Assembly: GCF_037975245.1 (NCBI RefSeq)
Contig: NC_092574.1
Span: 11,805,213-11,869,212 of the forward strand
DNA length: 64,000 bases
DNA from: Apostichopus japonicus
Taxonomy: Eukaryota > Echinodermata > Holothuroidea > Aspidochirotida > Stichopodidae
Direction of reading: 5' to 3'
The notes beneath the pieces are model-generated. The model was not told the DNA's origin. It saw only the letters and a list, made by a program, of their open reading frames with translations, and did no database searches. The position numbers were made by a program, and so were the translations under genes. Shown here in pieces: positions 1,080 to 45,500 of the stretch (the first letter of the stretch is position 1; each line of letters begins with the position of its first letter).

Positions 1080-17939
<16,860 letters not shown>

Positions 17940-18033: not shown

Positions 18034-18804
18034 TCGCGTAATTTTTTCCTAGGAGGGTTAGGGGTAATTATCATATATAGGCGTATACAAACCCTCGCGC
18101 ATGCGTGTTACTCGTAAAAAGTTTATGACTAGTAGTAGCAGGGAGATATTATAACACCTTCCTAGGGAGATGTTATAACAAATCCCTGGTAGCAGTACAT
18201 ACATTTTGTGCTACGCGATCCACGTTTTGCACATGTATACATATATATGCGTTCATGCAGCGACGGAGACCTGTTCGACTTACAATCCTTGCGCCAATCT
18301 TTAGCTGGAATCTTGCCCTAGATTAGAAGTTACTCGATACAATTGTATATAATAAAGTAATCCTCTCACCCAGATTTTAGACACAATGTACGGATTTCAT
18401 CCGTCGTTATCAATGTGCGCGACGGACATTAATTTAATGGTTTGGTTAATGTCATACGCAGACTATAAGTCCACCACATTAGCCATAACACCTTCAAAAA
18501 TTAATAATTGATGTGACGATTTGATCGCGCTGTAATTTGTATTTCTTTAGCCCTCATCCCATCACTTATTTTCTTCAATTCTCACTTAGTAATCCTTGGC
18601 CAAAAAGCAAACTGCATTACGTGTAAAACTGTACAGCGGATATCTATTGCTTTGTACAGCGTACATAGTGCCCACACGGCCCCCACTCGTGTATTACAGC
18701 GATCGATGAGTAACGGTGTCCATGAGTAACACGCATGCGCGAGGGTTTGGATACGCCTATATATGTTAATTACCCCTAACCCTCCTAGGAAAAAGAATTA
18801 CGCG
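18034..18804. mobile_element. Foldback/MITE element upstream of the C3-like start
   Basis: Arms of about 80 bp, 18034-18115 and 18724-18804, are inverted copies. Both contain CCTAGGAGGGTTAGGGGTAA and CCCTCGCGCATGCG. The 600-bp loop holds no reading frame I recognise. The left arm starts about 95 bp upstream of the C3-like start codon (17939), so the element probably overlaps the promoter or 5' UTR. I did not find a clear target duplication. Confidence 0.75.
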
Positions 18805-20455: not shown

Positions 20456-21082
20456 ATCAACATTTACTGAAGAAACTAGCTATTTATGGCAAGGTTCCTT
20501 ATCTACATATAGATGTTGGCCTGATTATCATGTTATTGTAACAGTCTGCGACCTGCGAGGTCAAGAATGTGTTACTTTAAACTTCCTGTTGTGTAGATTA
20601 TGGAGGTGACTACTTGGAATGTAATTATATACAACGGATGCCATGTTTGACATGTGCTATATTCCTTATCGAATTCAACTTTAATCGTTTCCGTTTTGTT
20701 AATTGATTTATTAAGTTGGAATGAAACCAAAAAATTCCCCTCAAAAAACGGGTGATCTTTGGGGTATATTTTGTTACATATTATCACTGTAATATTTCCT
20801 TTGCTGGTATGTATACAAAAGCCCCCGACATCCTTCCCGACAGGCATCTGGTTTCACCATATCTTGGAGGATGCCTTGGACAAATCGAGGGGTGATTTTG
20901 TGGAAATTCCGAGGGATCCATAAACTTGTACTACATCACTGTTAATCCGGCTGTTCTAACTCAGTTACGAAGTTGTCACAATATATAGAAAAAGAATGGA
21001 ACATTTTAAGCAAAGAGTGGTTAGAGCTCTATGTAATCAAATTTAGAAGGAGAGCAAAGATTTCTTATAGACACACTCTTAA

Positions 21083-21440
21083 AAGTTGGGTAAAAATATT
21101 GACCAACACTTAACCAACACTGGGTACATATGTAACCGCTCAAAAAATGGGCAAAGTTTGCCCAACAGCAGTTGGGTAATGCATTTACCACGTAGTTGGG
21201 TAAATTATTTTACCCATTATTGGTTAATTTATAAAGTAAGTTGGGCAATTTGTTGCCCAAGATTGGTTAATGAATAAAATTGTATTGGAGTGTTTTTACT
21301 CAATGTTGGTTGATTGTTACAATTAGTTGGGCAATTTGATACCCAATATTGGTTACTGAATCTAATTATATTTGAGTGATTTTATCCAATGTTGGTTGAT
21401 TGATACAGTTAGTTGGGCAATTCGTTACCCAATATTGGTT
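21083..21440. repeat. Subterminal repeats of the large transposon
   Basis: TTGGGTAA, TTGGGCAATT, TTACCCAA, TTGCCCAA and ATTGGTTRAT motifs recur in both orientations, arranged in loose units of about 80-110 bp. The same motifs appear near the right end (37281-37390). Such clusters are typical of transposase-binding subterminal DNA; that role is inferred. Confidence 0.75.
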
Positions 21441-21474
21441 GATGAATGAAATGAAATTTACACTAGGGTTTATA

Positions 21475-21485
21475 TAATTATAATA

Positions 21486-21516
<31 letters not shown>

Positions 21517-21886
21517 TTTTAGGTTTATAGTCTTGTTCAGGGCCAAGGCCCTCTCACACGACTTTACAACTTAACCCTGGTCATTGGTAACTTGTCACAC
21601 CTACACACCAAAGTGTGCACAATTCAATCAATCTCTCCTGGGGCACCACAGTGCACCACAACCACGTGTCCCCCGGGGGACTTCCCATAGGGTGCAGCCA
21701 CAAACCGGCGCAAACAACTATATTTACAAGTTACCTCGCAAGTCCCCATTTATACACCTGGGTGAAGAGAGGCAATGGAGATAAAGCGCCTTGCCCAAGG
21801 ACACAACGTGATGATCTGGCCAGGGCTCGAACCTGTAATCCATAGATCACAAGGCCACTGCCTTAACCACTTGACCACAACGCCCG
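21475..21886 (-). mobile_element. tRNA-derived SINE with (ATT)n tail
   Basis: Read on the minus strand, it starts GGGCGTTGTGGTCAAGTGG, matching a pol III A box. A B box GGTTCGAGCCC follows about 60 bp from the start. Then come a TTGGGCAAGGCGCTTTAT-type body and a tail of TTATTATT repeats at 21475-21516. It is inserted in the left part of the large transposon. Reading frames across it are not genes. Confidence 0.85.
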
Positions 21887-23374
21887 TTTAAAAATATTAA
21901 CATATAAAATAGTATTAAATTCTCATTTTATTGATGTAAACAGCTTCAAAAAGCTTCACTAGAACTAACCACACATAAAATGGTTTCACAGAATTTAGCA
22001 ACATGGTATTGTTGGTTGCAGTAATCTATTAACTTACTTTATATCATATTGTGTCAATATGTTCATCATGAAAATGTATCAATGTATGCTTTGCAAATTT
22101 GCTTTAGGACTTGGAACATGAATATTGACATACAAGTTCATCATGAAACTACAATTTATTCTCTTCATGGATAAAATTAACCTTAACCTACACAACATTG
22201 CTTGCTTCTTGCCCACTGACCAATTTGTAACAAGTGTTGTTTACAGCTAAGCCTTTTTTGCAGTTAAAGGTGATTGTTTTCACTAGACAGTCTATTAAGT
22301 GCTAAGAAATTTGAGCACAGAAGCAAGGAGTTCAACAGGAAGTGGCAAGTCCTCATAATTATTTCATGATAATTATATAGATATAACTAGTAGTGGACAC
22401 AAATATGGCTCAATGTTAGAAAAGGAGTACTATTTATGATATATCAATGGTTAATTCCAACATAAGCAGTCTTGTGCAGCTATAACATATTCTTCTTAAT
22501 GCAAACTGACTTGAATGGAACACACATGGTATCACACATACAAACCTCTCATATGTCTATAATGTCTTAATTGTTTGTAATTTGAGCACAATTTGTAAGT
22601 ATAATGATATGATATTTACAGACATAAAAGGAAAGGTCAATGATGGTGCAGGTTTACCTAGTTCTTCAAGTCAATGCACAATAAACATACCGAAATTGTA
22701 TATTTCACAGGCACCTAGGAATTTTCACACATATCAAATATGAATCCCTAACCAGTTCTCTTTAAAACTTATTTCAATGTTAAACTTTGCATACATCATG
22801 AAAAAGCATGACAATCACAAAACTTTTTAAAATCTAGCCCTAGTAGTTATAAGTGTAAATTTTTGATTACCTGCTTCCCTTCTCAAGAATAGTCAGATCT
22901 GTACATTTGACTTAAAAAAAGACCCTCAACTGTGTCATAAGCAGGATCAAAACAACATCAATGTGTACACGTTATGGAAAAAAATGATAAGATGAATTTG
23001 ATAAGCAAACGTATACAAACATTTTTTCCCATGAAGACACATAAAGTCAGTGCATGTTTATGAAAAATGATAACATGCAAAGAAGTAAAAGAATTTTAAG
23101 TTACAAAAACCAACTTAATTATTGAACCAATAAAATGATTAAAAGCAGCAAGGTCCGGATCCAAGAAGTCATAACTTTTTGTTTAAAGAAAAACTGTAAC
23201 AAAGAGAGATGTCCATCGCTGTATCGTTTATACACTGTGCTGTTTGTACTGACTGCAGCTGTTTGTACTGACTGTATACTAGTGTCTATTTACTGACGGT
23301 AGCAAGCTGTGTTTGTATTTTCTGGGATCGATGGTGGTGCCTAACACTTCTGTTACACCTCAGTCAAAACTAGG
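21887..23374. other. Non-coding interior of the large transposon
   Basis: AT-rich, without supportable exons. It probably includes the 3' UTR of the minus-strand gene ending at 23375. A polyadenylation signal was not fixed. Confidence 0.5.
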
Positions 23375-24950
23375 TCAGATTTCCGGCATTAGACGTTTCT
23401 TTTTGCGCGAGTCTTCACACCCTTTAAAGCAAACACCTATTGCTTTCAGTAGGGATGGTTGTGGCAGAGCATGTCTCTCGAGAATAACATAGGCCTGGGA
23501 TGGTGTTAGGTGGGTGCCTCTGCACACTACAAAGGGCTGTGGCGTCATGTCCACATTGATAGTCCTTGCGTATTCTTCTATGTCAACATCCTCCTACAGT
23601 TATAAAAGAAAAGGTACAATTTATTCCTGACTGTTACTGTAATTTATTCCTAACTGTGAGAGGGACATTTCAAAAAAAAAAAAATGCAATGCAGAATATG
23701 ACCGTGACACCTTCGTACTGAGTAGTACTAACCTTAGTTAGACAGAACAAGAAAGAATGTAACTGCTGACTGCTGAGCACACACAGCTAACAGCATCTCT
23801 GACCAGATTCCAGAATAGACAAATTATGTGAACTTGGAATTTCCGTCACATGAAGCACGAGATATTTTCTCTCATAATAGCCATAAATTCACATTCATAA
23901 CATAGGTGACCTTGCAACTTTACACAGATTCAGAATAATCTTTTGGTCATGATGCGCTTTTAGTATTTATTTCATGTAGCAACTTTGAACATTCATACAT
24001 TACAGTAATCTTACTAGTGTTTCCTCAACCAAATACTTAGACTCTGCAGTGAAGGTCAAGCGAGACATCAACATGCCTAACAGTTTTGGTATGACACGGC
24101 TGGGATTAGAAATCGAGCCCCGCCTCCTGGATGGCTCTGACCACTCGTTTTTTCCATTATGTAGCTTATATAGGTGAGCGTGGGACATGATAAATATTTT
24201 GGTGGGGTGGGGGCGGGGGGAAGGTTTCCCAGCATTTCATGACAACAAAGTTCCCTGATGAATTTTCAAAATTCCCTGATGATTAGTTCAACCTATTTCT
24301 AGTGTGATATGTCTTTGCACATTTTGGACATGAGCCAATATATAAGACTGACTGCTCTCTTGGGCCAATCAAATTCCCTAGCTTTTCCCTAATTTTTGAG
24401 ACATTTTTCTCAAATTCCCTAACTTTCCCTGACTGGAAAAAGGGAAACTAATTTTCAAGGTTCTGCTTCCATTTTCCAGGATGGCTGGCAACCCTGCTAA
24501 CCAATCTGCCCTCACAACCCCCCCCCCCCAACACCCAGGAAAATAATTCTCAATGACCTTACGGTTGAGAAACTATGATTTAATTGTTGTGTCTGTTTAT
24601 TCACCTCTCAAAAGTGGATGATTTGTACAGTTTTTAGACCCTCTAATGTGGAGAAGTTTCTTAAAAGTTAGTCATGAAAGGGAAACACAAATAACATAAA
24701 ATTTATTACTAGTTGACTACATGATCTCTGTCAAGTTAAATGTACCTTATTTGCAATGGGAATCAGATTATGAAGCAATTCCAAATTAAGATCACAAAAT
24801 TCATTGATTCATGCATGATTCCAACAAAGTTTACCTTTTTGAATAAACTACTTACCGGCTGAACAGTGATGAAGCTTTTCACGGATTGCTGTGCCAAGCT
24901 ATGGCCCCTTTTACCCTTCACACCTCGTAGTATTACTGATAGCATGAAGA
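23375..24950 (-). CDS. Transposon-associated protein, two 3' exons (partial)
   Basis: Two minus-strand exons, 24950-24856 (phase 1 in, 0 out) and 23593-23375, are joined by clean splice sites (CAGCCG|GTAAG; CTGTAG|GAG). They encode about 103 residues ending at TGA (23377-23375). The first exon gives FMLSVILRGVKGKRGHSLAQ. The second contains QPFVVCRGTHL, then AYVIL, then SLLKAIGVCFKG and a basic tail RKKKR. The pattern QPFVV...AYV...LKAIxVCFK resembles the C-terminal part of SAM-bearing proteins of unknown function common in fish and invertebrate genomes. The 5' exons are uncertain. The phase-1 end of the SAM-like exon at 36954 would splice directly onto this one, which would nest the other two genes inside a 12-kb intron. 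The function is unknown. Confidence 0.65.
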
Positions 24951-25766
24951 CTGCAAGGTTCTTCTTTTGATCTGTGAATTAGAGCATATCATACTACCAG
25001 TGTTTGTAGGTAGGTACTTAAGTTTTATGGGTAATTGTTCTCAACAAAGGTTTAATACTGCCATCCACAGCTTTTCATCCAGGTTTGGAGTGCTAAAATA
25101 GGTTTCCCTGTTACTTATTTCCTTTTCCCTGTTCCAGTTAGTGTGTATTACGTAAGAACATGTAACATTTCTCAAAAGAGCATTGCATGTACATAAATCG
25201 GAGCATGGTACCTGTAATGGGAATTTAAATTTAAATATAAAACCTAGACATTTTGTAATTCCTTGGGGACCTTGGCACATAAAATGGGTTATTTACTCTC
25301 TTTTTTTAGGTAAGAACATTCATCACTATAAAAAGAATTAAAGCAGCATTTTGCGTCATTTTCCCATGATTTTCTCAACCTCATTGACCCCACCATGCCA
25401 TAACGACATACATAATAAGCTTATCTATTCAACTCTAACTTCAAATCGTGGAATAAAAGTCGCAAAATTTAGAACTTTCAACGTTGTTTTTCTCGAAGGT
25501 CTTTTCCGTTAGGATCTCAGTAAACCCCGCCTATATATGAATATTCAAACACGATGAACGTTATTGCATAACGTGGTAAATAATAAACAATGATCAGCTG
25601 ATTGCAAGGCATCGCGAAGCGACAGATAGTGTAGGCAGGCTACATAACGTTACTTCAGCCTATACATCTACATCGTTACCAGGCTTGTCCATCTCGCATG
25701 ACAGTGTGCTGATATTCTCTACTGCAAAAGAAGAATTTCGCAAGAAGAAATTTGCTCACCCTTAGC

Positions 25767-27534
25767 ATGGAAACAAGAAATACCAATGTAAGTTCCTATC
25801 ATTTACCAACACTGTCGGAAAATTCTTCATCTTTGTAGATGTACTCTCCGTTTTCCGCGATCGCTAGATCGCGGTATACACTAGACTATGCCTATACACA
25901 TGTGTGACCAAACTACTCTTCTGTACCGATGTTAGGGTAACTTTAGGCCTAACAACAAACCCATATCACGACGAACTTAACGTAGTGTAGTGACGTTTGC
26001 GAATATTTGCTTAGTTAAAATGAATGTCGTCTAGTGCAGTGAGTAGTTAGATTTAATGTTAGCTAGGCTTCAGGAATGTTAGTTTGACCCATGAATTATG
26101 ATGGATCATAAGCAAATATGCTCCAAAGGTTATCTCTAAAAGAAAAACAAACACTATCAGTTGGAAAGTAAATAACTATCTTATTTCTTCTGTCATAATG
26201 TAGCAGTCCTTAGGTGATTCACCAGAAACACCATCAAGGAGGACATCTGGGAGAAGGGGAAGGAGGGGTACAGGCCGTGGAGGAAGGGGCCGTGGTGGAA
26301 GAGGTGCAGGTACGCCTCGGTTGACAGCAGCTGCAGCAAGACAGCAAGTTGCTAATCAACAGCAGGAGAGGACAGAAAATATCAGGGTACATAAAGTGGC
26401 TATATTCTCATTTACTATGTTTCTTTGCTTTCATTACAAATCCTCTCAAGAACATGTACTCAAACACGGGAGTCTCTGGGTGTGTAAAAAAAAAATAGTT
26501 TGGTGTGGAAAGGGTACCAATACTATTTCTTAACTTCTATGAAATTAACTTTTCGAGTTATGAGCATCTTTCTATGTGAACCAATATGACAAATGCCCAT
26601 GACTGTAAAATTGACACTGATAATTTATCATGGAAGGAGTGGGAGAGGTGGTTGAGAGAGGATAGGAACATAAAAAAACATAAGCTTACAGTTTTTGTCA
26701 TAAGGTTATTTTGGGTATTACATTTGAAATGCAACATAACGTTTGTGGCCTCTTTCAGGAAATGATACACAGAGTGGACTCTGAACAGCTGCGAGAGCTC
26801 GTTCTGCAGTTGATGAACAGCTACCCTGCTCTCTTTTTTGATATTTGGGAACGTCAGCAGCACCCACAGCGTATGACAATCCCAGACTCACCTGGCTGGT
26901 GCACTTGTGAGAGGTGCAGAGAAATGCCAACAGTAGAGGAACGGGTGTGCTGTCTAGGGACAGGTGACAACTGTCTCTCTCTTAGACCGGTCAGTACTGT
27001 TTTCTTAATGTTTTATCTGGAACCCAAAATTTGCTTTGTGGCTAGCAATAGTGCTCAGTGATGACAGCATAGACAAATTAAATTTCTTTTACAACTCAAG
27101 ATAACAAAATATGTTGTTATGACATAACCTTCCGTGACTAAAGTGTTATTTTCAGCAATCAGTTTAAGAAGTTTATAGCATATGGCGTCAGTGACAAGAA
27201 CTGAAAGACTATAATGGGTGTTTTAATAATTGGACATAACTTTCTACAACTTCAATGTCATATTTTCCAGGAAATTGATACTGTGGTAATTGACCCTTTG
27301 GTCCTTGGTGTCGCCCGAGAACTAAGAAGAGCCATCTGTGGCGGTAACAGAGGAGAAGAGCCCAACAAAGCCAATAGACATGCTGCATACAGACAATTTG
27401 TACTGTGGCATTATGGTCGCCTTGGCAACAGAAATAGGAGAGCAGTTCCCAGTTGTGTTGTCTGGCGGATCAGGTCCACTTTTCCTGACCCACATGATAA
27501 CTATGTTGGGTACATTCCAGGTAGATTGCTTTAA
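25767..27534 (+). CDS. P2X7 cytoplasmic-tail (zinc 'ballast') domain protein
   Basis: Four exons, 25767-25787, 26204-26386, 26759-26989 and 27271-27534, all in phase 0, give 232 residues with a TAA stop. Residues about 20-45 form an RG/RGG-rich basic stretch, as in nucleic-acid-binding proteins. From about 110 the protein follows the C-terminal cytoplasmic domain of vertebrate P2X7: WCTCERC, RVCCLG, then NRHAAYRQFVLWHYGRLG, PSCVVWRIRSTFP and YVGY. The Cys residues match the zinc-binding set. There are no transmembrane segments, so this is the stand-alone domain and not an ATP-gated channel. It lies inside the TTAA-bounded transposon, convergent with the DDE-like gene. In such an element it could be an accessory DNA- or RNA-binding protein; that is inference. 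The ATG at 25767 opens the first exon and is followed by a good donor. Confidence 0.85.
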
Positions 27535-28946
27535 TGTTTTCATTTATCTTTGTTAGCTATTCTTGCCGGTATTCAATTTTTCTTCTTCACATTTTTCTAT
27601 TTACTTACATATATGTTTTTATACTTGCCATTAATCAGACTATTTTTTCACTTCTTTATCGTTCATTTGTTATGCCATCAAAAACTGTCATTCCAAAATC
27701 ATCTTTATTTTTATATCACATATTTTCTATTTACTGAAAAGACTTAAATCCAAAACAGTTTTTCACTGCTTCACTCACCCACCCTTCACTTCTTTCAAAC
27801 AGTAGTTTATTTTTTTAAGATGACCATCTCCATTGGTTAATATAACAAAAATCATATAAATGTCTACACACAAAAAACCTAAATTAAGAACTTTTATCAG
27901 TACTTAGTATCCTACACAGCTGCAGATTTCACCTTGACTCTACGAAGACACATTCCATGGAAACTTCTGTTTCTTCTTAAACATACTTTACCATTTGTTA
28001 CCTTGCTCTTTTGAATTACTTGTTTCTTTCTTTTTTCTAAGAGTTCTTATCAATTTGTTGTTGGAAGTTGCATTGGCCTTTCATTACTTGTGGTACTACA
28101 ATATAGTATTTTTGGTCTTTCATAATTTTTTTCTCACATATGCATGCCCAGCCTTTCTATGTATGTGAAATATATGAACAGTATTTATAAACTGCATTGA
28201 GTTTTTTGCTTTCTGTGCTATTTTGTTACAAAATATACCATTAGGCTGGAAAGGAAAAGTCTACATCGCTTGATAATGATGCCTACTTTTATGGAATGGG
28301 TCAAAGTTCATCTGGGATTAAAATTGTTAAAATTGTGAAACTTGTTAACATACTATCTCAAGGAGTACAAGTCAGGACAGATAACAGGGGTAGTAAAGTG
28401 TAAAAACATAAGGACAAGAAGCTTATTGTTTTTTGGGGAGATCAAAGTTGAGTTCAGGTCATGAAGGTTACACAATGAAAATCCTTTGAAGATTCCTAAT
28501 TAAGGGGAGCTTTGCTGTCATACAGTTGTAACACACTGCATGCACAGGAAGGTGATTTTTCTTGGGGGAGGTAAAATGGTTCAAAATGAGAGCATATGCA
28601 CAATATCTGCAAAAATCAGGAGGGGGGGGGGGTGGGAGCTGAACGATTTAACATGGTGATATATTACATTAACTTTAGGCCAAGAACGGCCGAGAATGCA
28701 ATGCTGGTCACATCTCAGTATTCTAATACTTTTTCCTGTACATATATTACATATTACAAATAATGACAGATTCGTAACAAACTATGGTACAGTAGAACCA
28801 CAATGCATTTATTTCCCATAACATTTGAGCATAAGCTTTGGGAACCATATTCGTCCACTACAACAACATGTAACAATTCTCCCACCAGCCCCCCCCCCCC
28901 CCCACCCCAACCTGAAAAAAATAAAACATTTGAGTGATGGCTAAGA
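27535..28946. other. Gap between convergent P2X7-like and DDE-like genes
   Basis: T-rich after 27535, then unassigned AT-rich DNA with G/C homopolymer runs near 28620 and 28890. Presumably this is the two 3' UTRs. No exon seen. Confidence 0.5.
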
Positions 28947-31900
28947 TTAAAGAGATGAACTTGCTTCCATCCTGCTCTTGTGATTTTCAAGAAGTTGATG
29001 GACAGATGGTGGTTGGTTTGGGCGTATAGTCCCGGAGATGCGCCTGGGGTCATCTTCTGCCAAAACCACATGACTTCGTTGGGACTTATTATCAATGAGC
29101 CTCCTTCTGAATACATCTTTCATTAGTTCTGGAATGTACTTGAAGGTTTTTTTTTGCATGACTGGGACACAGGTCCATCTACCTGCAGATTTGGAATAAT
29201 TTCTTGTGAAACTGCAAGAGAAAATGAAACAAAACATATCAGTTCATATTTCTGTACTTGCAGGCCTTAATAAAGGAAAGTGATGTGATGATAGTACAGT
29301 ATGTAACTTACACAGGTTCCCCATCTCTTTCTGCTTGTCGTCTTCCTTTGTGGTGTTGGTAGTCGATACCAGCTAACAAATTTCTAGCCTTATACGAAGG
29401 AGGGCTGAAAAAAATGTAGGAATTGAAACATTACATGATTTCATACATGATTATTACATGATTTCAATGAGATTTCATAATAAATGAGCAGAAATCAAAT
29501 CTTGGACAACATACTTACCCATAGGCAAACCGCTTGGCAGCATAAACTAGCACATGGCTCTGGAAATTTTCTAGTGCTGATGTGTGTCTGAAAGTGATAT
29601 GAAGGAATATTCCATAATTTAAGGAGAAATTTCCACTGCAACTAGCCTGAAAGTATTTTCATACTTCTAGCTGCTCATCATTGATTACTTCACCACGTGG
29701 CAGGGCATGTGCAAGATATCTAACAATATCCTAACAAAAGGGTAACATATATTCAAGATTTGTGCACCAAAACCAGTACCTGAACTTTGTGTAGTATTTG
29801 ATGTTTCTTATAAGATTCATGTCAAGCACAATCTCTCTCAGTGCTGCATGTGCAGGAGAGTCTGGTTCAAGGTCCTTCTGACTAGCTGGTAAAGGTCCAT
29901 GCTGGCAACATGCTGGACTAACTCCATCACCTAGAGCCCATTCATGATCTCCAACAACATGGTGAAGAATTCCCTTCCAGTTTGCCTTAAAAGGAAAGAA
30001 GAGATCATGACATGACAAGGATAAAGGTGAAATAGAAAGTATAGCAGAATTCCATCACAAGAAGTATTTATACTGGCTGCCTAACTTAGTTAAAACGTTT
30101 ATGACTGAAGTGCATGTTTTGAATGTAATATTAAGTCACAAGAACATATTTAACTTACAAAAAATGTGTCTGCACTTCCATCTGCATGCTGTGAGCAGTA
30201 CCAAAAGTGCCTTGTTATGTCACTAATCCATGGCATGAGTGGCCTGTTCCTTGCCTTTTTTGCTGCCTGAAGAGAAAACAGGTAACAACAGGATGTGTTT
30301 GAGGTACATTATTTTTAGATCAAAAGAGAAAAAATAATCATGTTGACATATGAAACACAAGGCAATCGGACTTACCTCACTCAATTTCTTGCCAATATTT
30401 TTTGCCCCATGCCAAACGTCAAACGAATGAGTGGTTCCTTCAAGACCCTCTGTACAGTAGACAGAAAAGAAAAACTTCAAATATACCATGTGGGTGACAA
30501 TGGAATCCGTGTCTTGGTAACTCAGTATGATAAAGAATTAAAAAATCTGCAAATGAACATTATTCTAAATGAAAGCTTACAAAGCAATATAATTTTTCCT
30601 TGTGTTTAGTACAACCAGTCATAAGACAAGTATATGTGAACATACACACACACATGAAAAATATTGTGCCATCAACAAGCCTACGAAAGTACATCAATTG
30701 CTTACTTAGGTAAGATTTAATTTGTGGGTGAGCATCTGTAACTACTTCCTCAACCTTTACATCGCTCTTCTCTAGCGTCTCCAGTGCTCGTAAGAAAGCA
30801 ATTTTTTCCATGTTGGTCGACTTTAAGTCAGCTTCCCTCTTGTCAACAACCTGAATGTCCAGTATATCGCAGGTTTCATAATCCATTACACTGTAGGTGC
30901 AGTATTGTGCACAGTGCCCAGGACTGTCATTCCTTCCGTCACCTGTTGAAGAAGTACCACATAATCATGAACACATATCTAAACAGTAAAATTATGTACA
31001 TCATGAAAAAATTGCCATTATATATGCCCCTGACATGCAGGGCTGTAAAATATTAATTACACGACTTACCAGCGATAACTACTGTTTTCCCTTTCCTTGC
31101 AAGTAATAGCTCAGTCTGAAGCTGCTTCCAGTGTGCCTCAATTGCCGGAAAGGTGTAAGTCCTCTGGCTATAACTGTGGAGAGCAGAGTGGCACATACCA
31201 AGGTTCATAAACCTAAACATCATTTTGATTTTTGCGTAGTTATTTCCAGACAGTATAACTGCAGCTGAGACTGCTATATCTCCCGCATTATTCCCTTTAA
31301 GCTTTGGCTGAGAATGCCAAATCTTGCTCACGTGTCCATGAGCACAAATCTGGAAAAGAGACAAAAGAAGTAGTAATCAAATAAGTGAGAACTAAATATA
31401 TATAAAAAAAATATTAACAAGCAAATAAGCCTCTAACTACCGAGGGCTACAGTAGTACCAAGGTTTTTTTTGAAGGTCAAGCAACTTTACCTGCTTAAGA
31501 TATCATGTTCACAAGGTTTAGGGACTCTGACCTCAGTTGCCCTTTGATCTCCATGAAAAACAAAAGGGATCATCTACTGACCTGGCACTTAAAGATGTAC
31601 CAAGTGAAGTTTCAGTTTTATGATACAGTATTTACAGAGTTGTGTAATTTTGACCTCAAATGACCTTCGACATCCATGAAACTTACTAAGGATCACCAAC
31701 TCACCAAGGGTTACACATATACCAAGTTCAAGTAATGTTTACTTTTTTAGTTATCTTGTCTATAAGCAAGTGTCACCTCCAAGGCAAAGATGCTATTTGC
31801 CTTTGGTGAGAAATAATTTAAATTGAGGGATAACTTAAATATAGTAGCCAAATCTGGACTGACAAAATGCCAAATAGAAACTGAAACGAACCCATTTCAC

Positions 31901-34867
31901 ACCAACAGCAGTTCCGACAAATTTTGTGACCTCTTGCGGAGGAGACTGGCAAGATTCTCTAACACAAGACTTAGGTCTACAATCCTTTAGTAGTTGCAAA
32001 AGGGACTCCTTGTAAGTTATGAATAGAGTATCTTCTGCACATGCCTCTGAACCTGTCCCATCATCTACATCCTCATCTTCAGACTGATCAGTCTCTGCAA
32101 AGGAAAGAATGGTGTCCAGGTCCAAATCTGCTGGTTGTTCTGGATGACTGTAAGAGAAAAATAAAATTGACATGTGCATTTAATAAAGGCATTAATTTAG
32201 CCCTGATTCTCTTTTATTCCAACAAAAAGGAGCGGATATATATAAGATTTGAGGCTGAAGTCAAGAAGCAGACATACCTAACGTTGAGATCAACACTCAT
32301 GTCAGAGGAGTCGGCATCTTCTTCACCAGAATCCCAGTCAGGGTCAGAGTCCCTGTCAATTGAGCCTGGGGTATCATGTGGAATGATGTAGTCCCCAACA
32401 TCAGTGTAGTCAAAACTTAAACTGAAAAAAAAGTAATAACAATTTAAATTCTCTGACACATATTGGAATCATCTAAGGTAACATTTTTATATCCATATAT
32501 TTTTTGGGTGTAAAATCACAGTCTTACTGTGAAAAGCTTGACCCAGGGCTAAGACGTTTGCATATGAAAGCATTTGAAACTGTTTTGTTACACAAGCAAG
32601 ATATGTAAAAGCAATGAATGTAAATGTGAATATCTGTCGTAATGAGTGACCCCAAAGGAGTTGAAAATACAAAACCAAGGGCACCAGGTTATTGAAAAAG
32701 GATTACATGGACCCGAAAATTTGAAATGTGGGAGACTGAACCACATCGCCTTCGGGTATAACTTGACAAGGCTTAGGTACTTGATTGCAGCACCACATAA
32801 ACTGCAAAATTTTCAAGAAAGGTTTCTGCTTTTTCCATAACTATCCAAACATGCATACTTAAGTTGGTCAGCGGATGATGTTTCTCCAGATAAAAATGGT
32901 GTTGTAGCTGGCAGTGCATCTTGACTTGAAGCAGACATACTTGACACAGGTGTTGATGTCATCAGGCCTATGTTTGGTGTTTTGCAAGGAGAGTATGCAG
33001 AGTCAACTCTGAAAGTAAAAATACATGTACAGATAACACTGCAGCGAAAGCAATATATTGGAGTATATGAATAATACATTAGAGAATTCAAAGAAAAGTC
33101 TGGCAAACTCAAGCACCACAATAAATCATTTTAACTGGAGTGTGTAATTTTTACATCTTGAAATTTGATTTCCTTGTTATCATTTATTGTTGGATTAATT
33201 CAGCTTTTGTGTGACATATTAGAACAATACAAGCAAGTGCACTTGTCTTAACTATATCACAATATCTAAAACATAATGCAATGAGATGTATCTATGAAGA
33301 GATTGCTTCAGCAAGCTATTAATACAGATATAATAAAGATATTTGTGAGTAAGTGACTTTGTTGTTTGGTCTTGCCGCTCAAATTGCTAATTAGTTGTAG
33401 ATATCACCGTTGAAGCCGCTGCGAGGGAGGATGTATTTATAACTGGAACAAAGATATTAGGATATGGGATTTGTTGAATAACTTGGAATATACAGTCAGC
33501 TTAATGGGACACTGCTTCGTTCTTCTATGGTAAATTCTATTACAGTATATTGTCATGCTTTCTCAAAACTGAAAATAATAAATCTTAAACCACTATTACA
33601 ACTTTCACAGGCTTGAAATTAACCAGGCTTATTAAACAAATGGGGAAAAGGGTACAAAGCAACAATGAATGGCCACAACATCCTGTTTAGAGCTGACAAT
33701 GATGACAAGACTGTAAACATACTGTAGTGTACAATCTCAAACCACATAAAGAGAGACTCAATCTCTTGAATGATATCCTTGACCACAAGAGTTACTGTGC
33801 ATTCATTATGCAATGCTGCTTATCAACAGGGTGGTTTCATGAATAAAGACCTTTATTGTTACATTTCCCTTCTCTTTGTTCTTGCTATGATTCCCTATGT
33901 TGATACTCACGGTTTGGAGTCAATAACCAAACACTTTTACAAGCAAATACTATGGCGATCCTTCACTGATCTTGGGCACTGAAACACAATTTCTCATAGC
34001 ACTTAAAATTGAATTTGTTACCAATATTATAGGCAATTGCATTACATTGTTCTGTGGCTGCATTGAGGTAAAGTTAACTGAAGGTCTTCATATGAGGATT
34101 ATGAGTATAAAATTCGTAGTTGCTGGTGAGAGTAATATATCATTTTGGCTATAACATTCTCACCCTAGCTTCTAAGATCAATAAGATGTTAAAGGATTCT
34201 AGCCTAGCCCAAAGTACACCTGCTTTTGTCAACTTCCAAGCATGAAAAAACATGGTCACCATGCATAGGCTATGTTCCTTTACGAAACAGAAAGGTAACT
34301 AGCCTATACCAGGACACTTCTTCTTCTTTTACTTTTTTATTTTTCCTTGTTTCTGAAGAGAATATCCTTCTAAATTTTTGGTAGAAATTCATTCCGTTGT
34401 CGAGCGTGCGTATAAACGTTCAAGCATAAACGATCGTAACAGCAAATACTAAACCTAAACTGCTCTGTTCACGTTCTAAAGTCGGGTTAGGCAGGCGTAG
34501 CGTAGGCCAAAGGCTTAGGTCTAGTAACGAAGTCGTATGAATACACCGGCAGTTTGATATTCTTTTCTTGTTTCACCAATCAAGAATTTGCAGGTATGCC
34601 TTAGATTCAATGAATTCTAGAACTTTTATGTCGTAGCAAGGAAGAGATTACTCACCTATCTAGCAAATATCGAGCGACCTCCGTGTCGTTCTTCAGCCCC
34701 AACTTCTCCTTCAGTTCGGTCCATCTTTCTACTTGATTCCCTAGGTGAATACGGGTGGCTTCATACCTTTGCTTTTGAGTCTTCCGCCACTTTCTCTTTT
34801 CCAGTGAAGTAAGGTTCTTCAAACTCTTGTATTTTCCTTTTGCGCGCTTCTGTAAGTTCGCTTCCAT
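28947..34867 (-). CDS. DDE-transposase-like protein, 12 exons, intact
   Basis: Exons, minus strand: 34867-34656, 33008-32859, 32421-32278, 32147-31892, 31349-31070, 30942-30706, 30449-30376, 30266-30159, 29985-29780, 29587-29519, 29404-29312 and 29211-28947. All GT/AG sites and phases agree, giving 697 codons plus stop with no interruption. N-terminal 70 residues: basic, with WTELKEKLGLKNDTEVARYLL. Residues about 75-200: acidic and Ser-rich (DSDPDWDSGEEDADSSD). Then a Cys/His segment (CxxGH, KIWHSQP). The catalytic-type core has GDGRNDSPGH, VVTDAHPQIKSYL, HSFDVWHGAKNIGKKL, HFWYCS and ILHHVVGDHEWAL, resembling a widespread RNase-H-fold transposase-like family; I suggest candidate DDE residues D (DGR), D (TDAH) and the E of HEW. 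Either an intron-rich autonomous transposase or a domesticated gene. Kolobok affinity is inferred from the TTAA borders. Confidence 0.8.
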
Positions 34868-36953
34868 GATAGAATAAGTTTTCACTTTGCCGGAGTCGAA
34901 AGCAACCCAGTATATCGATACGTACTACAATGCAATGCTTTAGTTTGTACGGTGTATTTCCAGGGAGTTGGTATGTCTGTGATACCCACGCACACGCAAC
35001 TTTTTCGGGTTGTTGTGAATGAATCTATTTTAAGCAACGGCTCATGAATATACATACTATTCACTGATTGGTGGAATTCAAACTAGTGGATTTGGAGAAA
35101 TGAAAACTTTGTCGTGAACACTCTTACTCGTTATCGACATAAATCGTTAATTACTCGCTAATTAACGCTCTTGGCAGGGTGAAACTTGGATGGTATCTTA
35201 GTTGACTGTTTTATGATTAATACATGTAAAAAAATCGATGCACATGTTAAAAAGGTGGGAAAAAACGACCCAACGCAAAATGCTGCTTTAAGTCCTAATG
35301 TTGCCATCTACAACCCTGAGACAATTGAAAAATGTATATCCCATTTAGTTTCTTTAAAGTACCTTCTGTCACTAACCCTTCAAAAATGTCATCCTGGTGT
35401 CAATCTTTGGTATGAGCTCCTTCATAGTACTTTCATGATTCATCCAACAAGGACAACGCAGCATTGTCTATCTCATTCTTTGAAATAACAACAACAAAAA
35501 ACTAGCATTTAAAGAAAGTAGCATAAAGTTTTAAAATCAAAACAGTGCCAAAAAGGGAGGGGAGAATTCATTAAAAAAAATTGTTGCACCTTCGTCAAGT
35601 AGTGATTTTTTATGTTTTCACTGTAAGCAGATAGAGTCTTAAAATCTACATGGTTGTATGTGGTTATCGTGAAGAAAGTTACAACCGTTTTTGATACCAA
35701 AATGACACAGTTTGGGCCAAAAATGTTTTATTCAAAGAACTACATTACCCTCCATGACACCCTACTAAATGGAAATGGTTTTTTTCATTTCTTGAAAATG
35801 ATACATGATTACCACGGGTCAGATATTTGGCTGTGAGCCAGCAAAGTGATGATATATATAATATATTATAAATCAATGCAAAATTACCAAACAATTTTTT
35901 TATTATGCCACACAACTTGGTTAACCAAACCAAAAGGTCATCGAAAGTTCATTATGGTTTTAATATTTTGGATAAATGCATACACCTAGCCTTGGCATAG
36001 GCCCCTTTAAGTTTTATCATTCAATTTATTTATACCTGAAAAAGAAAATGATAGAAGGAAGAGACATATTTTTACATGTCAAAATCTTGTCTTTCTGATC
36101 ACATAGTCTCGGGCCTACAGATACGCCTACTGTACCAGTTTTGTGGAAATTTTGCAGACGTAGGATCTACTGTACACTTAAAGTTAAACCATAAATTTAT
36201 GAATATTGTGAGGCTGAGCCCCAATAAAAATCAACATTTGTAATACTGAGGCGAGGTATAAATTAGTAGTTTCTTGTCCTGCCTGCATCCTTCTGCCCAC
36301 TGGGTCAATTTCCTTCCCTTTTTTTAATTTTCAAATTTGAACAACCAATTTACCCAAATTATACCACAGAAATTCCCCTTCTGATCACACTCTCTGTAGG
36401 TTAATTGCCTGCACCCTCACTTTTTCTGAACAGTTAGGAAAAGAAACTATTTTATTTATAAAAATGTGATCAATATGGCCCAGGCAATACTAGCATTTAT
36501 TTAAGTTATATTTGTAATATATGACCCAACTATATTTTAATAGTAAGTAATATATGACACTCAAACTAAGAAGTTTTCCAAAACAATTTTCAGCAAGCTA
36601 GTATGAAGGTGACTTAGTTAAGCCTATCCTTAGTGACATCTTAATAGTTTTCTTAACTTTCTTCAGAAAACTGAAAAATGTGAGCCTAGGACTGGTGAAG
36701 TGTCATCAACATTACTTATCCCACGCCAGACACAAGCATAACGTTATACTCCGTAGCCTAACGTATACGCAAGCGCGCTCTATCTTGTGCAGCAGAGTTA
36801 GGCCTAGCCTACGCACGGGCTACGAACACAATATATACTCTTGAGTCTTGACCTAACGTTTGGAAATTGCCAAGTCTGTAGGCGGACACAGCCTAACGTT
36901 AGCTAGGCCAAGTAATATTCTAGCCAATCCGTTTGGGGGTATGAATACTATAC
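34868..36953. other. Region upstream of the DDE-like gene
   Basis: No supportable exon. GCCTA-rich stretches occur at 34480-34530 and 36740-36910. A 100-residue plus-strand frame at 35186 lacks any family resemblance and is treated as chance. Confidence 0.45.
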
Positions 36954-37041
36954 CTTCAAATGATTCCTTCAAGTCTTCTACCCCCCAACTTCGATAAAGT
37001 GTCAACACATCACCATCATCAACCGGGAACGAGGAAGACAT
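36954..37041 (-). CDS. SAM-like first exon inside the large transposon (partial)
   Basis: Minus strand: ATG at 37041, 29 codons, then a good donor (GAAG|GTATAG) in phase 1. The peptide begins MSSSFPVDDGDVLTLYRSWG and continues VEDLKESFE. This resembles the first helix of SAM-like domains (WGL...F...) found at the start of many transposon-linked proteins. It lies about 350 bp inside the right end. Downstream exons were not identified with certainty; the phase fits the exon at 24950. Confidence 0.45.
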
Positions 37042-37973
37042 AATTCAAAATATACTCATGAATGTACCAAAGAATATTCTACTGCACATCGATCGTATGT
37101 ACCGTATCTAGTAGAACTGTGCTGTTATCACGTCGCAACGCGCAACATGCCTTCACTACTACTCCAGCGTAGTTAGTATACGAATGTACGTTCACAATGA
37201 TCACATTGCAGTTCGAATTGTACGACAATATTTTGGCGGGAACATTGCCCAGACGTTGGGCAAATGGACTCGTATATATACAGGATAAACGTTGGATAAT
37301 TGTTTCCAACACCATTTTACCCATAATGGTTAAAGAATTAACCAACATTTTCTTAAAACATCTCTACCCAACAAATTTTTGCCCAACGTTTTAAGAGTGC
37401 ATGCATCGAAAGGGAACCAAGCTTGGGAGTAGATCAAGTTGCAGGTTTTTGTGCCAAGGCTCTATCTTGGGTAACTTCTCCCTTGCAATATCAAACGGTC
37501 CGACAAGTCACTGACCAGAATGTAAGTCGCTTTCGTCCAATCAGAGCGCTAGAAAATAACATGCGACACTGGTCGTTAAATGAGAGCACAAGAAGCTGAG
37601 ATATGTCAACTTAATTCGACATATGTCGATTTCAGGACTAATGGCACACTATATGCGCACCATATATGTCTCTAGATCATAACGATTCCCACAGCTGCTC
37701 GAATGGGCTTATTTCATGTTGCTATCGTTGGAATTAATATCGTTGGAATACTTTGAAAGCCTTGGTTTAGTTTGAAAAGGATGATTATGATGACACCTAC
37801 GACAAATGTGGTAACAGGTGCTTGATTTATGGTATTAGGGAAGTTAAAGGGGAACAAAAGGTAATTTGACTTCGGTTTACTAGAACCAGTGTGTCTTTAT
37901 AATGAAATATGGAAACGGTTGCAGCAAAAATAAAAGAAACAAGAAACAAGGCAAATGACATTCTAGGATTAGT

Positions 37974-39533: not shown

Positions 39534-42500
39534 ATGTCCTTTCCAAAAGCTAAGAGATTTCTAGAAGTTAAAGGTAATGATAGATCACGAAAAGTCGAAA
39601 TTTGTAGCCATAACACAAACCGATGATAGGCACAGGCTAAGCCTAACGCTAGTAAAACCTTTGCCTAACGCTAGTAAAACCTTTGACCGACATTTACTCT
39701 TCGCAACTACGCCGAAACCCACACATTAACAGTAGCCTACTTTGAGGCTAATAAAAAGCAAGACTAAGCCTAGGCTAGCTGTAGTAGTGGGCTAGTAGTA
39801 GTACTACTTAGTAGTATTTTGTTAGGATTATCGCAACTTCTCGATGCTAAGCAAACTTACTTTTAAATTAAAGCCTAGGCCTAGGTAAATGATAATATCT
39901 TTGGACTTTAAGACTAGGCTACAGTCATATGATTTCACAATTCCTTTGATCAAATTCAGCAAAGGGCATTGCTGTGAAGTTTCAACTTTAGTTTAGGCAT
40001 AGTGCTAGAGCTTGGATGCTATGTAAGTGAACAGTAATAACATGTATAGGCATAGGCTAAGCCTAGAATAACCAAAATTTCGATTTCCCTTAGGCCTAGG
40101 CCTATGCAGTTTTTATACAATTTATTGTCAGATTGTATAAACAAGTTTTCTACCCTTTTAAAAAGTACCTTACATTATTGATTTATATATCATGTTCGTA
40201 TGTATTTTACTGTAAAGCGCCTTAGAACAAATTCTGATTGGATAAGGCGCTATAGAAATTTTTATAAAATAAAATAAATAAATAAAATACATGGTCGTGG
40301 CTATTCTTACGACTAGTCATAACAATTATTTATAAACTATTCTTACGACAAAGGCGAATTCAAGAGCAGTAAAGTAAATAAAGCAACTGCACATGTAGTA
40401 TGGTAACCCTAACCCTAAACATAACCCTAAACCTCAATCCTAACCGAAAATTATTGTTACTCCTCGTCGTAAGAATAGTACTCCTGGTCATAAAAGTAGC
40501 AACTGCGCATGCGTAGTCGGAAATTATTCTTACGACTAGTCGCAAGAATAGCCACTTTGATACTACATTCATACTACTGTACATTATAGGCTAGGCCAGG
40601 CTATGTAGCAACTGTCTTCATGTGAGTTCTCATAGATGCAGAAATCATCTAAATTTCATAGAAATTGATATGTGGTTGCTTTATTAGTTGCAGTTTAGGC
40701 TAGACCTAACCGGTTCCAGTGCCATTCCGCCATTGGTACTGTACATACCGCCATACCATCCCGCCATAAGTTTCGATCCTTTATGCCATGGCGGAAAGGA
40801 TCGAGATATATGACAGAAAGCTACAATTTCTCATTTTTACACAGGAATGTATATTTCGGTGAAACTTTCATTGATTTTCGTAGAAGGATAGGTACACCGT
40901 CTTCAAATGAAATGGTTCACTGGATAGACTTTAATTGTAGTTAAGACAAGATTGAGAATAGATCTATAGTCTTTAACGTACAGGTTGAATGAATAGTTTT
41001 AATTGAAAGTTTGTAAGAGTCAATACACTGTCTTCAAATATCATTAAACTGCAGAATGAAGAAATTGACTGACAGCTGACAGTCTTACTGACCAGTGTGA
41101 ATAGCGAGTAACCAGTTGTGATTGTAGGCCTATTTTGAAAGGAGATGTAAAATATATAATATATTGTACACCTTCCTAAGCAGCCCTGATATTCAACAAT
41201 TGGTTCTGTTTGTTTGTAGATACAACCCCTGCCCCAGACCAGTACAATGTCAGTGCATCAGCTAAGCCACAGGGTGTGGCTTTGCCAACTACTGAGAGAT
41301 TCAAGGAGCCAAAAGGTACAGTTTACACCTAAGGCTTCTGGGCAGGGATGCACCACATGCCCTCTCGGGCAACCAGAAATTTGTTTCTTTCAAGCTTAAA
41401 ACTTAAGTTCCAGGTTGTTCACCTATGGCAGACTTATACAGTATGTGGTGGAAGGCGAGGCTTTAACTGGGTGCGTGTACGGGAAGTACACTGATTGTGC
41501 AGTACCTACTGTAGCTGCCTACCTTAGTAGACCTGCAGTAGATTCTAGTACAGGGCAGGTCCAAGCTATTTGCACTGTGACGTACGGGACATTTCAGAGA
41601 CTTAAATGTGTCTAAAAGTTATAAAATATCTATTTTCCAGAAACTTTTTCAGCTTTTCATATTTGTTATTGCTGCTACTTTATTACAAACTCATGAAGAT
41701 TTCCTACACTTGCTTTAATTAGGTCCCATCTTAATTAATGTACAGTGTGACGTACGGGACCAGAGAATTTTGTGTTTTTTCTTACTAAAGAGCAAAGCTG
41801 AAATCCCTATGAAATTAGGAGGGCAGTGATCAAGCTGTTTTAACTAGTGAATAGCCTAACCTTCCAAGGGCTAAACTGTAACAAATTAGAAAAAAATATG
41901 AAGCCATTCCAGTTCAGTGATTACACAAATGAAAATTGTCGTGTGACGTACGGGACATGTGACGTACGAGACAATTTGTCCAAATAACAATTGACTATGA
42001 AAACTCATAGTTTTATTCCTGAATATACCATAACAAGCTGATTTCTACATAAAAACATTCATTTGGATATGCCAGAACAATGTCATTGGTAATTTAATGC
42101 CATATTTCCTTCTTTCGGGGATCGAAAAGAGCAGTGACTGTACTTGTGAGATCATTCCACTACATAAAACATGGAATGCGTAAAGTATAAATCTACTCTA
42201 CACATTCATCAAATACTCATAACATCAATTTTAGCTTTGATAGACCACAAATGATCCAAGATGCAAAGTTTTGATGCAAAACTGTTTCGGTATATACTGT
42301 ACAACACTGTATCATACTCCCTACTATTGACTCTCAAGTTGAAATATGATCCATCCCATTCAAAACATACCAAAATGTCCACAGTAACATCCACATAATG
42401 TCCATCTATGAAACTAGTACAACAGAGAAAACTCTATAAACCTAATACTGGTTACCAGACCAAATACTCATAACATCAATTCTAGCTTTGTTAGACCACA

Positions 42501-45500
42501 AATGATTCAAGATGCAAAGTTTTGATGCAAAACTGTTTCGGTATATACTGTACAACACTGAATCATACTCCCCGCTTATGACCCTGAAGTTGAAATATGA
42601 TCCATCCCATTCAATACATACCAAAATGTCCACAGTAACATCCACATAATGTCCATCTATGAAACTAGTACAACAAAGAAAAATCTATAGACCTAATACT
42701 GGTTACCAGACCAAATACTCATAACATCAATTCTAGCTTTGTTAGACCACAAATGATTCAAGATGCAAGTTTTGGTGCAAAACTGTTTCCGGTATATTCT
42801 GTACAACACTGTATCATACTCCCCACTATTGACCCTCAAGTTGAAATATGATCCATCCCATTCAAAACATACCAAAATGTCCACAGTAACGTCCACGTAA
42901 TGTCCATCTATGAAACTAGTACAACAAAGAAAATTCTATAGACCTAATACTGGTTACCAGACCAAATACTCATAACATCAATTCTAGCTTTGTTAGACCA
43001 CAAATGATTCAAGATGCAAAGTTTTGGTGCAAAACTGTTTTGGTATACTGTATATACTGTACAACACTGTATCATACTCCCCACTATTGACCCTCAAGTT
43101 GAAATATGATCCATCCCATTCAAAACATATCAAAATGTCCACAGTAAGGTCCACATAATGTCCATCTATGAAACTCGTACAACAAAGAAAACTCTATAGA
43201 CCTAATACTGGTTACCAGACCAAATACTCATTCAATGTCAATGTTGAATAGCATTGTAGATGATTCTGTATCCCCCCCACACACACACAATTGACTTCCG
43301 ATAGTATATTGAACAACACCTGGCCGTTGGTGGTCATCAGTCAATGGTTTATTTGAAGCCATGTTGTGCTCTTCAGGCATGCAGGGATTATAAGTTGCAA
43401 CTACCATCTTTCAACAAAATAAATTTGTAAGCATTGGAAGGTTTCCAGTAAAGGTCCCCATTGGAGCCCATGCATGTTTATTATGTATAAATACAGGGTT
43501 TCCCCCACACTATGTCCCGTACGTCACATTTTGTCCCGTACGTCACATTTTTAATTTTGATAATTAGATTTGCTGTGAATATTTTTTTCAATTTTTTTGG
43601 GATGGATTTTGTTGAACAATGTTCTTAATTAGATCTTTACAGAATATCACCAAAAAAAAATTGTTCGTCCATATCAAAACTTGAAAAAAAGTGCTGAAAA
43701 TTGTGACGTATGGGACATCAGTATTTGGACACTAGCTAATTAGCATATTTAATTGATGAAGCCCTAAACATATGTCAAAATTATTGGAAGGAATGTTGTA
43801 TCATGTCCCACATAACTTATATTCAATAAGTTCATATTGCTGGCAGGGAAATAGTATTCCAAATGTCCCGTACGTCACACTGCAATTTGAATTTATGCAA
43901 ATTAGTCGGCTGTAATTGTTCGAATAGGCAAAACAATTAAAAAAAATTATGAAAATCTGAAACTTCAATAATTCAGCTTTAACATGACACCAAATTTAGG
44001 GTGCTTCAGTAAAGTTTGAAATTTGGCTTCTAGGGATACAATAGCTTGGACCTGCCCTACAGTGCCTATTCGTGATGAAAGCTTTCAAATATTAAATTAC
44101 ATTGAACATTTCCCTTACATTATGTTACTGAAGCAATGAAACATGTTAATGTGTTGTTTGTGTTTTTGGTGGAAGGCGAGGCTTATCTAGGTGCTTGTAC
44201 ACTGATTGTGCAGTACCTACTGTAGCTGCCTACCTTAGTAGACCTGCAGTAGATTCTAGTACAGTGCCTATTAGTGATGAAAGCTTTCAAATATTAAATT
44301 ACATTGAACATTTCCCTTACATCTACAGTATAGTTTCTGTAGTATGTTACTGAAGCAATGAAACATGTTCATGTGTTTTTTGTGGCCTTTGATTATATAT
44401 TGTACATAGTGTTTGTTACTGGAGCCATGAAACATGTTTCTTGTGGCCTTTGGTAATATATATGCGAATAATATAGTGTTTGTTACTGGAGCAATGAAAC
44501 ATGTTATAAGTTTCTTGTGGCCTTTGGTAATATTTTGTATGGGAATAATATAGTGTTCAAGTTGTTGTTCCGCAGCTATGTAGGCTCTGAAATTTGTCTC
44601 AGTTTAATTACTTGATCGGTTCTTGTATTACACATGTATATCCACACTTACATAGCAACTTGATCGACTGGCATCTTTGCGATGCAGTACTGGTCCGATA
44701 CATTTTCCTTGTATACTTTGTCCACACAGTGTGCCTGTTAAATACTGTTTATTCTCATTTTCTCTTTAGATCTGGCACCAAAGTCTCTTAACAACACGTT
44801 GTTGTTCATGTCACCTTTAAGAAAAGTATCATCTACTGAGTCTCTCGTAAGTGAAGCATACATCAAATAATGCATTGTCACACAACTTTGGATGTTTTTC
44901 TTAATGAATTTGTTTAACACAGCCAGGTTCTCTACTTACTCTATCAGGAGAGGCATGAAAGCTCTTCCCAAAATAGCAAAGTAGTTTCTTATAGAAAAGT
45001 AGTTTCTTTCTGCTTATTTAAGTGTAATTATTTACCCTCATTTTAGTTCAATAGCCGTTTCTGATGTGCCCATCGATGTGGAGTGGCATGATAAAAGAAG
45101 CACAAGTCCTATCTAGATATCTTTATCATCTTATATATGAACTAATATATATAAAAAATAAATTACTGCTGATAACTTACTATTAATGTCAGTTTAGAGG
45201 TGACAGAACTTTGGCAATGGGAGGGGGGAGGAGAAGGATCATGTGTGTCTTACTTTCTATGCCACTCCATGGTCTGACTGACATTCTAGTTTTTAAAAAG
45301 TGAGCAGTAGAGATAAATGAGAATTGTGATTATTACTGACAATTGATGTCAGAGCTGATGTAAGACTGCTGTTGTTGAAATGTCTGGATTTTGGAACATG
45401 CATCTTCATTTGCTCCACAGCCTCCATCTGGAAGTACACAAACAAAGAGGAGAGTTTCTCGCAGTCAATATGACAGAAGACTCAAGGAACTGGAATCAGA

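Follow-up and report, generated by a model that had tools for sequence, protein, structure and literature searches.

A stretch of 64,000 nucleotides of the Apostichopus japonicus genome (contig NC_092574.1, forward strand, positions 11,805,213 to 11,869,212), hereafter called the window, appears to contain two nested mobile elements: an intact Kol0-type Kolobok transposon (25342-35287) lies inside an older and decayed outer unit, an interpretation to which we assign a probability of about 0.87. The inner element encloses two open genes, i.e., one for a DDE transposase and one for KolX, a protein with the ballast domain of P2X7. The outer unit has its own pair of ends and contains exons that are probably sterile alpha motif (SAM)-like. 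A preliminary description of this DNA had taken all that lies between the outer ends for one 16-kb TTAA-flanked transposon with three genes, possibly an undescribed autonomous family.

All 74,431 pairs of TTAA located 300 bp to 30 kb apart received two scores, one for the inverted similarity of the sequences on the inner side, the other for the complementary bases beyond the TTAA. The best inward score (15) belongs to the pair 25338-25341 / 35288-35291: the left TTAA is followed by AGCAGCATTTTGCGT, the exact inverse of which precedes the right TTAA. These terminal inverted repeats (TIRs) are identical at 15/15 positions and constitute, together with the TTAA, a perfect inverted repeat of 19 bp. 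Zero perfect inverted repeats of at least 19 bp occurred in 30 resampled windows. In the real window, 10 of the 17 non-simple perfect inverted repeats of at least 16 bp reach 19 bp, because this DNA is rich in other repeats; the inner pair is the only one that starts with TTAA. Within the 9,946-bp interval the transposase and KolX genes are convergent and begin 420 and 425 bp, respectively, from the inner ends; they are the two genes recognised there, and no SAM-like exon was found (the remaining open reading frames, ORFs, being outside the scan).

The outer pair (TTAA 21079-21082 and 37391-37394) scores 12 inward and 5 outside. Seven pairs, this one included, reach an inward similarity of at least 12, and it is the only one of all pairs that combines this with at least 5 complementary bases outside TTAA. 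From the scoring of all pairs, a single 16-kb element is therefore set aside in favour of nesting. Such an element would carry the transposase, P2X7-tail and SAM-like genes, its inner ends being due to chance or serving as internal binding sites; the outer ends and their subterminal motifs are real and the three sets of exons all lie between them, but the inner TTAA-flanked ends match better and bound both intact genes, the SAM-like gene is broken and the other two are open, the inner element separates SAM exon 2 from the candidate C-terminal exons, and the published Kol0 families encode two proteins (PMC9587614). A single element is thus very improbable. The grouping of three genes is not the most likely reading, since the inner 9.9-kb element holds two intact genes and the SAM-like exons lie outside it; the TTAA-flanked DNA transposon with DDE and P2X7-tail genes is present, but its limits are most probably the 25338/35288 ends and not 21079/37394. 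The 16-kb length is due to the nesting and to an insert resembling a short interspersed element (SINE).

All introns of the two inner genes have GT-AG borders (11/11 for the transposase, 3/3 for KolX); the exon limits were picked by eye. The A. japonicus protein P0001 differs from the window transposase at 5 of 612 residues, the match spanning 612/697; it stops short of the last exon, for which two Holothuria proteins (P0003, P0004) give support. Among 53 aligned members, D349, D417, E562 and D437xxH440 are at least 90% conserved, i.e., a DDE triad with a DxxH motif between the second D and the E. Between DxxH and E lies an H2CH zinc finger (H496, H501, C514, H516), complete in the window transposase. 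Residue 514 of P0001 is Phe in place of this otherwise conserved Cys, so the P0001 copy may be impaired. The predicted structure of the transposase has an RNase-H-like fold, that of the ISCth4 and Hermes transposases; a search of PDB sequences with the transposase profile gave no match. Judging from family and structure, the 697-aa protein would bind the TIRs, excise the element and insert it at a TTAA, which would thereby be duplicated, i.e., a cut-and-paste action, and the element may still be active.

The match of KolX to PF20478 (P2X7 intracellular domain) has E = 9.9e-26, and the A. japonicus protein P0121 is 100% identical to it (232/232 aa). The open frames, the GT-AG introns and these A. 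japonicus matches agree with the preliminary description, which held the DDE-like and P2X7-tail genes to be intact. Of 1,007 candidates in the KolX protein search, 38 are relatives at E <= 0.001. Among PDB sequences, P2X7 (6u9v) matches residues 110-226 with E=3.3e-10. The AlphaFold2 (AF2) model of KolX has a pLDDT of 81 and 14 PDB matches at E <= 0.001, every one of them P2X7; scaled by query length, their TM-scores are 0.37-0.42, and 124-138 columns are aligned. KolX is characterized by seven conserved Cys (C116, C118, C121, C132, C133, C140 and C207; 31 aligned members) and by an arginine-glycine-rich (RG-rich) stretch at residues 19-43. It would be an accessory protein of the Kolobok, with a predicted zinc-binding P2X7 ballast fold and an RG-rich tail, and it probably assists in the nucleus; nucleic-acid binding via the RG-rich tail, or complex assembly, may be guessed.

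In one protein of the KolX search, P0155 (293 aa), the ballast domain PF20478 is found together with PF13843, which we take to be a piggyBac-type transposase family. A link of the ballast domain with piggyBac is mentioned in PMC9587614, and P0155 agrees with it.

The longest contigs for P0121 and P0001 differ in size (27.98 vs 37.2 Mb), which hints at more than one genomic copy. Alternatively, the two genes would be domesticated host genes and the ends coincidental remnants. In favour of this, both genes are open, and in Xenopus the domestication of Kolobok transposases is frequent (PMC6004289); against it stand the intact catalytic triad, the TIRs and TTAAs surrounding the gene pair, and the A. 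japonicus proteins at 99-100% identity on contigs of different length. Domestication is very unlikely.

Kolobok elements are characterized by TTAA duplications, 5'-RR / YY-3' termini and a C/DxxH motif, with a zinc finger in almost all lineages (PMC9587614). Those of the Kol0 group encode a DDE transposase and KolX, the latter with the P2X7 ballast fold (Kojima and Bao, PMC9587614). The inner element has AG...CT termini, i.e., 5'-RR ... YY-3', and a 4-bp TTAA duplication, seen at one locus. As each Kolobok and Kol0 trait that was tested is found in it, the inner element belongs to a known kind: it is most probably a new Kol0-type Kolobok, and its gene pair itself has already been described (PMC9587614). 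The idea of an undescribed autonomous family is thus not upheld for these genes.

Several points weigh against the nested reading or against its details: (i) the Pfam matches of the window transposase all miss the cut-off, as does that of P0001 to PF20700; (ii) with respect to the splicing chosen here, P0002, a further A. japonicus model, is missing one stretch and keeps intron sequence; (iii) the similarity of the inner TIRs ends past 15 bp, the 450-bp inner ends having in common only this inverted match and short words; (iv) nine other perfect inverted repeats of at least 19 bp are present in this repeat-rich window, so that position and TTAA decide here, and length by itself does not; (v) the inner element is known from one locus only, and the indication of two copies is drawn solely from differing contig sizes; (vi) the placement in Kol0 was made by gene pair and features, the tree holding search relatives only and none of the named Repbase Kolobok proteins.

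The inner Kolobok is located between SAM exon 2 (about 84 bp off) and the candidate C-terminal exons. Since it sits within the putative SAM-like gene of the outer unit, the latter is older than the Kolobok insertion. The Kolobok would have entered a TTAA at this place, the implied pre-insertion site being ...ATAAAAAGAATTAAGTCCTAATG... inside the outer unit.

The ends of the outer unit were examined by word counts. CACTCTTAAAA has a single exact match per strand in the window, at 21074-21084 (+) and 37389-37399 (-). With up to one mismatch, 3 matches are found for 2.35 expected, so that the count of this word is by itself no evidence. The window contains the subterminal motif GTTGGGYAA 9 times (1.15 expected), always in the two outer ends (21085-21420 and 37255-37387), a number reached in 0/100 shuffles. 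The left end also has a tandem repeat with an 86-bp unit (21207-21452, 2.9 copies). An outer unit whose ends have subterminal sites in common is thus real; matching inverted ends with TTAA on both sides and common motifs, as first described, are confirmed by the sequence, by the unique position of this pair on both scores and by the shuffles.

The outer unit may be an EnSpm/CACTA-like (CMCT) non-autonomous element with CACTC...GAGTG termini and a 2-bp CA duplication (21072-21073 and 37400-37401). From CACTC on, the terminal match is perfect over 11 bp; the left flank ends with ...GACA and the right one begins with CATG..., i.e., CA on both sides; CMCT elements have mostly CA..TG termini and duplications of 2-5 bp, and EnSpm has CAC..GTG (PMC12730594). 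On the other hand, a 2-bp match arises by chance about once in 16, EnSpm/CACTA proper is given as making a 3 bp duplication (PMC12730594, PMC4158355), the unit is single copy, and a Pfam scan of 10 of its ORFs, which are a subset, gave no transposase, EnSpm included. It is true that an element that is decayed or non-autonomous can do without a transposase of its own.

Alternatively, the outer unit would be a TTAA-duplicating element, mobilised by Kolobok or piggyBac, in the palindromic target CACTCTTAAGAGTG. TTAA flanks both sides and the AA...TT ends agree with the RR/YY rule of Kolobok (PMC9587614), but the 5 complementary flanking bases must then come from chance or target choice, which only 135 of the 74,431 TTAA pairs show, and a one-base gap breaks the inverted match 2 bp inside the TTAA. 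The implied empty site is CACTCTTAAGAGTG with TTAA and GACATGCA (...TATAGACATGCATCG...) with CA. On balance CACTC...GAGTG termini with a CA duplication are slightly favoured, and the TTAA duplication is retained as a tentative second choice.

The exons of the outer unit are only probably SAM-like. Exons 1 and 2 joined by X retrieve SAM_1 as the sole Pfam family, with E = 0.14, below the cut-off; single exons have no significant Pfam match, and the longer join with the C-terminal exons has none. A 140-aa join gives one Pfam row (MAPB1_N, E = 0.11, below the cut-off) and no match in a PDB search. The best PDB chain for the SAM-like query is the SAM domain of polyhomeotic (E = 0.18), the first two of 15 rows being this protein and the rest other molecules. 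In the protein search 0/55 candidates were found at E 0.01 with a query padded by X, possibly weakening the search; against the 158 proteins gathered, phmmer gave no match and the best blastp value (E 0.54) is at chance level. The exons may resemble multicopy fish SAMD3-like proteins. The candidate C-terminal exons are putatively assigned to the same gene by strand, order and compatible phase only. SAM-like exons thus exist, as had been claimed, but their SAM match is weak, and stops and a change of frame disrupt the second one.

Without the inner element the outer unit measures about 6.4 kb. As it has no recognised transposase and its SAM-like gene is broken, it is now probably non-autonomous. 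Only this outer SAM-carrying unit may be undescribed. That the CACTC/GTTGGG unit represents an undescribed transposon lineage with its own SAM-domain accessory gene, which lost its transposase and later gained a Kolobok between the exons of the SAM gene, perhaps carried along by the outer ends as cargo, is rather unlikely. The literature search gave no paper joining (i) EnSpm, sterile alpha motif and transposase, (ii) Kolobok and sterile alpha motif or (iii) sterile alpha motif and P2X7-like. Among viral contigs, the outer end pattern had no match; 20 and 14 stretches fit the KolX and transposase patterns, respectively, none of them encoding a relative.

The CpG observed/expected ratio is 0.33 in the outer left part (21079-25337), 0.43 in the inner element (25342-35287), 0.65 in the outer right part and 0.72-0.80 in the two flanking stretches. 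The low values of the outer left part and of the inner element possibly reflect methylation decay.

Table 1. Features of the inner Kolobok element and of the outer unit, with positions in the window.
Feature	Position	Strand	Remarks
Inner element, Kol0-type Kolobok transposon	25342..35287		9,946 bp; perfect 15-bp TIRs, TTAA both sides; encloses transposase and KolX genes
TTAA, left copy of inner target-site duplication	25338..25341		sequence
TTAA, right copy of inner target-site duplication	35288..35291		sequence
Inner left TIR	25342..25356	+	AGCAGCATTTTGCGT
Inner right TIR	35273..35287	-	AGCAGCATTTTGCGT
KolX gene (P2RX7_C ballast domain)	25767..27534	+	exons 25767-25787, 26204-26386, 26759-26989, 27271-27534; 232 aa, open
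DDE transposase gene	28947..34867	-	12 exons, 697 aa, open
Transposase exons 1-6	34867-34656, 33008-32859, 32421-32278, 32147-31892, 31349-31070, 30942-30706	-	
Transposase exons 7-12	30449-30376, 30266-30159, 29985-29780, 29587-29519, 29404-29312, 29211-28947	-	
Outer unit	21074..37399		CACTC...GAGTG ends; or 21083-37390 if TTAA is the duplication
Outer left end	21074..21100	+	CACTCTTAAAA-GTTGGGTAAAAAT
Outer right end	37373..37399	-	CACTCTTAAAACGTTGGGCAAAAAT
Outer left subterminal region	21085..21452		seven GTTGGGYAA sites (six +, one -) and 86-bp tandem repeat
Outer right subterminal region	37255..37387		two GTTGGGYAA sites (one +, one -)
tRNA-derived SINE-like insert in outer unit	21471..21889 (limits approximate)	-	RNA polymerase III A-box and B-box matches; ATT-repeat tail
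SAM-like gene, candidate C-terminal exon b	23375..23593	-	no significant Pfam hit
SAM-like gene, candidate C-terminal exon a	24856..24971	-	frame open from one GT/AG signal to the other; without Pfam match
SAM-like exon 2 remnant	35375..35477	-	broken by stops and a changed frame; inner right TTAA about 84 bp away
SAM-like exon 1	36954..37041	-	MSSSFPVDDGDVLTLYRSWGVEDLKESFE; donor GTATAG

ARAGORN called no tRNA gene in the window, the SINE-like insert included, and Rfam gave no match. In the surroundings, a complement C3/C5-like exon (9957-10313, minus strand), which matches the beta chain of C3 in the PDB with E=2.9e-07 and no Pfam family at 0.01, probably belongs to a host gene, about 11 kb to the left of the outer unit. 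Eight other window ORFs have no Pfam match at E 0.01. The repeats of the window comprise a perfect ATAG repeat (14961-15861, 225 copies, 901 bp), a tandem repeat with a 251-bp unit (42210-43231, 4 copies, 94% matches) and two inverted ones. The first of these (18043-18113 / 18724-18794; 71 nt, 97% complementary, 610 nt apart) looks like a miniature inverted-repeat transposable element; the second (11575-11623 / 17527-17575) is perfect over 49 bp, with more inverted matches nearby, and probably corresponds to two opposite copies of one repeat family.

The apparent giant transposon with three genes is thus resolved into a nest, and the Kol0-type Kolobok thereby obtained from an echinoderm, both genes of which are open, is a possible substrate to learn the function of KolX, hence that of the P2X7 tail before its capture by a channel. 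From sponge to sea urchin, genes with the P2X7 ballast show a conserved linkage to two markers (Rump et al., PMC7016195). If many of these genes are in fact KolX, the transposon itself would place a transposase next to them; part of this linkage may therefore be the Kolobok's own gene set and not ancient host synteny.

The comparison with known systems leads to the following picture. The inner element shares with the Kol0 lineage (Kolobok-1_XT type) the DDE transposase plus KolX, the TTAA duplication, the purine ends and, in the stretch from the second D to the E, the DxxH and H2CH motifs. Ten full-length Kolobok elements of Xenopus listed in PMC6004289 measure 6.8-13.9 kb and have AG termini; the inner element likewise starts with AG and measures 9.9 kb. 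The transposases of these Xenopus elements (XKol) carry THAP motifs (C2CH, PWF, AVPTIF), whereas no THAP domain is found among the Pfam matches of the window transposase; THAP is read here as a trait of the Xenopus set, the excerpts of PMC9587614 not giving it as defining the superfamily. The Xenopus transposases, the only ones covered by the comparison of introns, are single open frames (PMC6004289), and that of the window has 12 exons. KolobokP, reported from A. japonicus with terminal direct repeats of 450 or 660 bp (PMC9587614), has superfamily and host species in common with the inner element; direct repeats of this type (about 450 or 660 bp) are absent among the 20 largest of 27 repeat families at 18-41 kb, in which the longest unit is 86 nt. 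The outer unit has the CAC...GTG termini and possibly the 2-bp duplication of EnSpm/CACTA (CMCT) elements, and differs from them in having no recognised transposase. Finally, KolX is homologous (PF20478, PDB 6u9v) to the C-terminal ballast domain of P2X7 / nanor (PMC7016195), and differs from P2X7 in being a free-standing protein without a channel.

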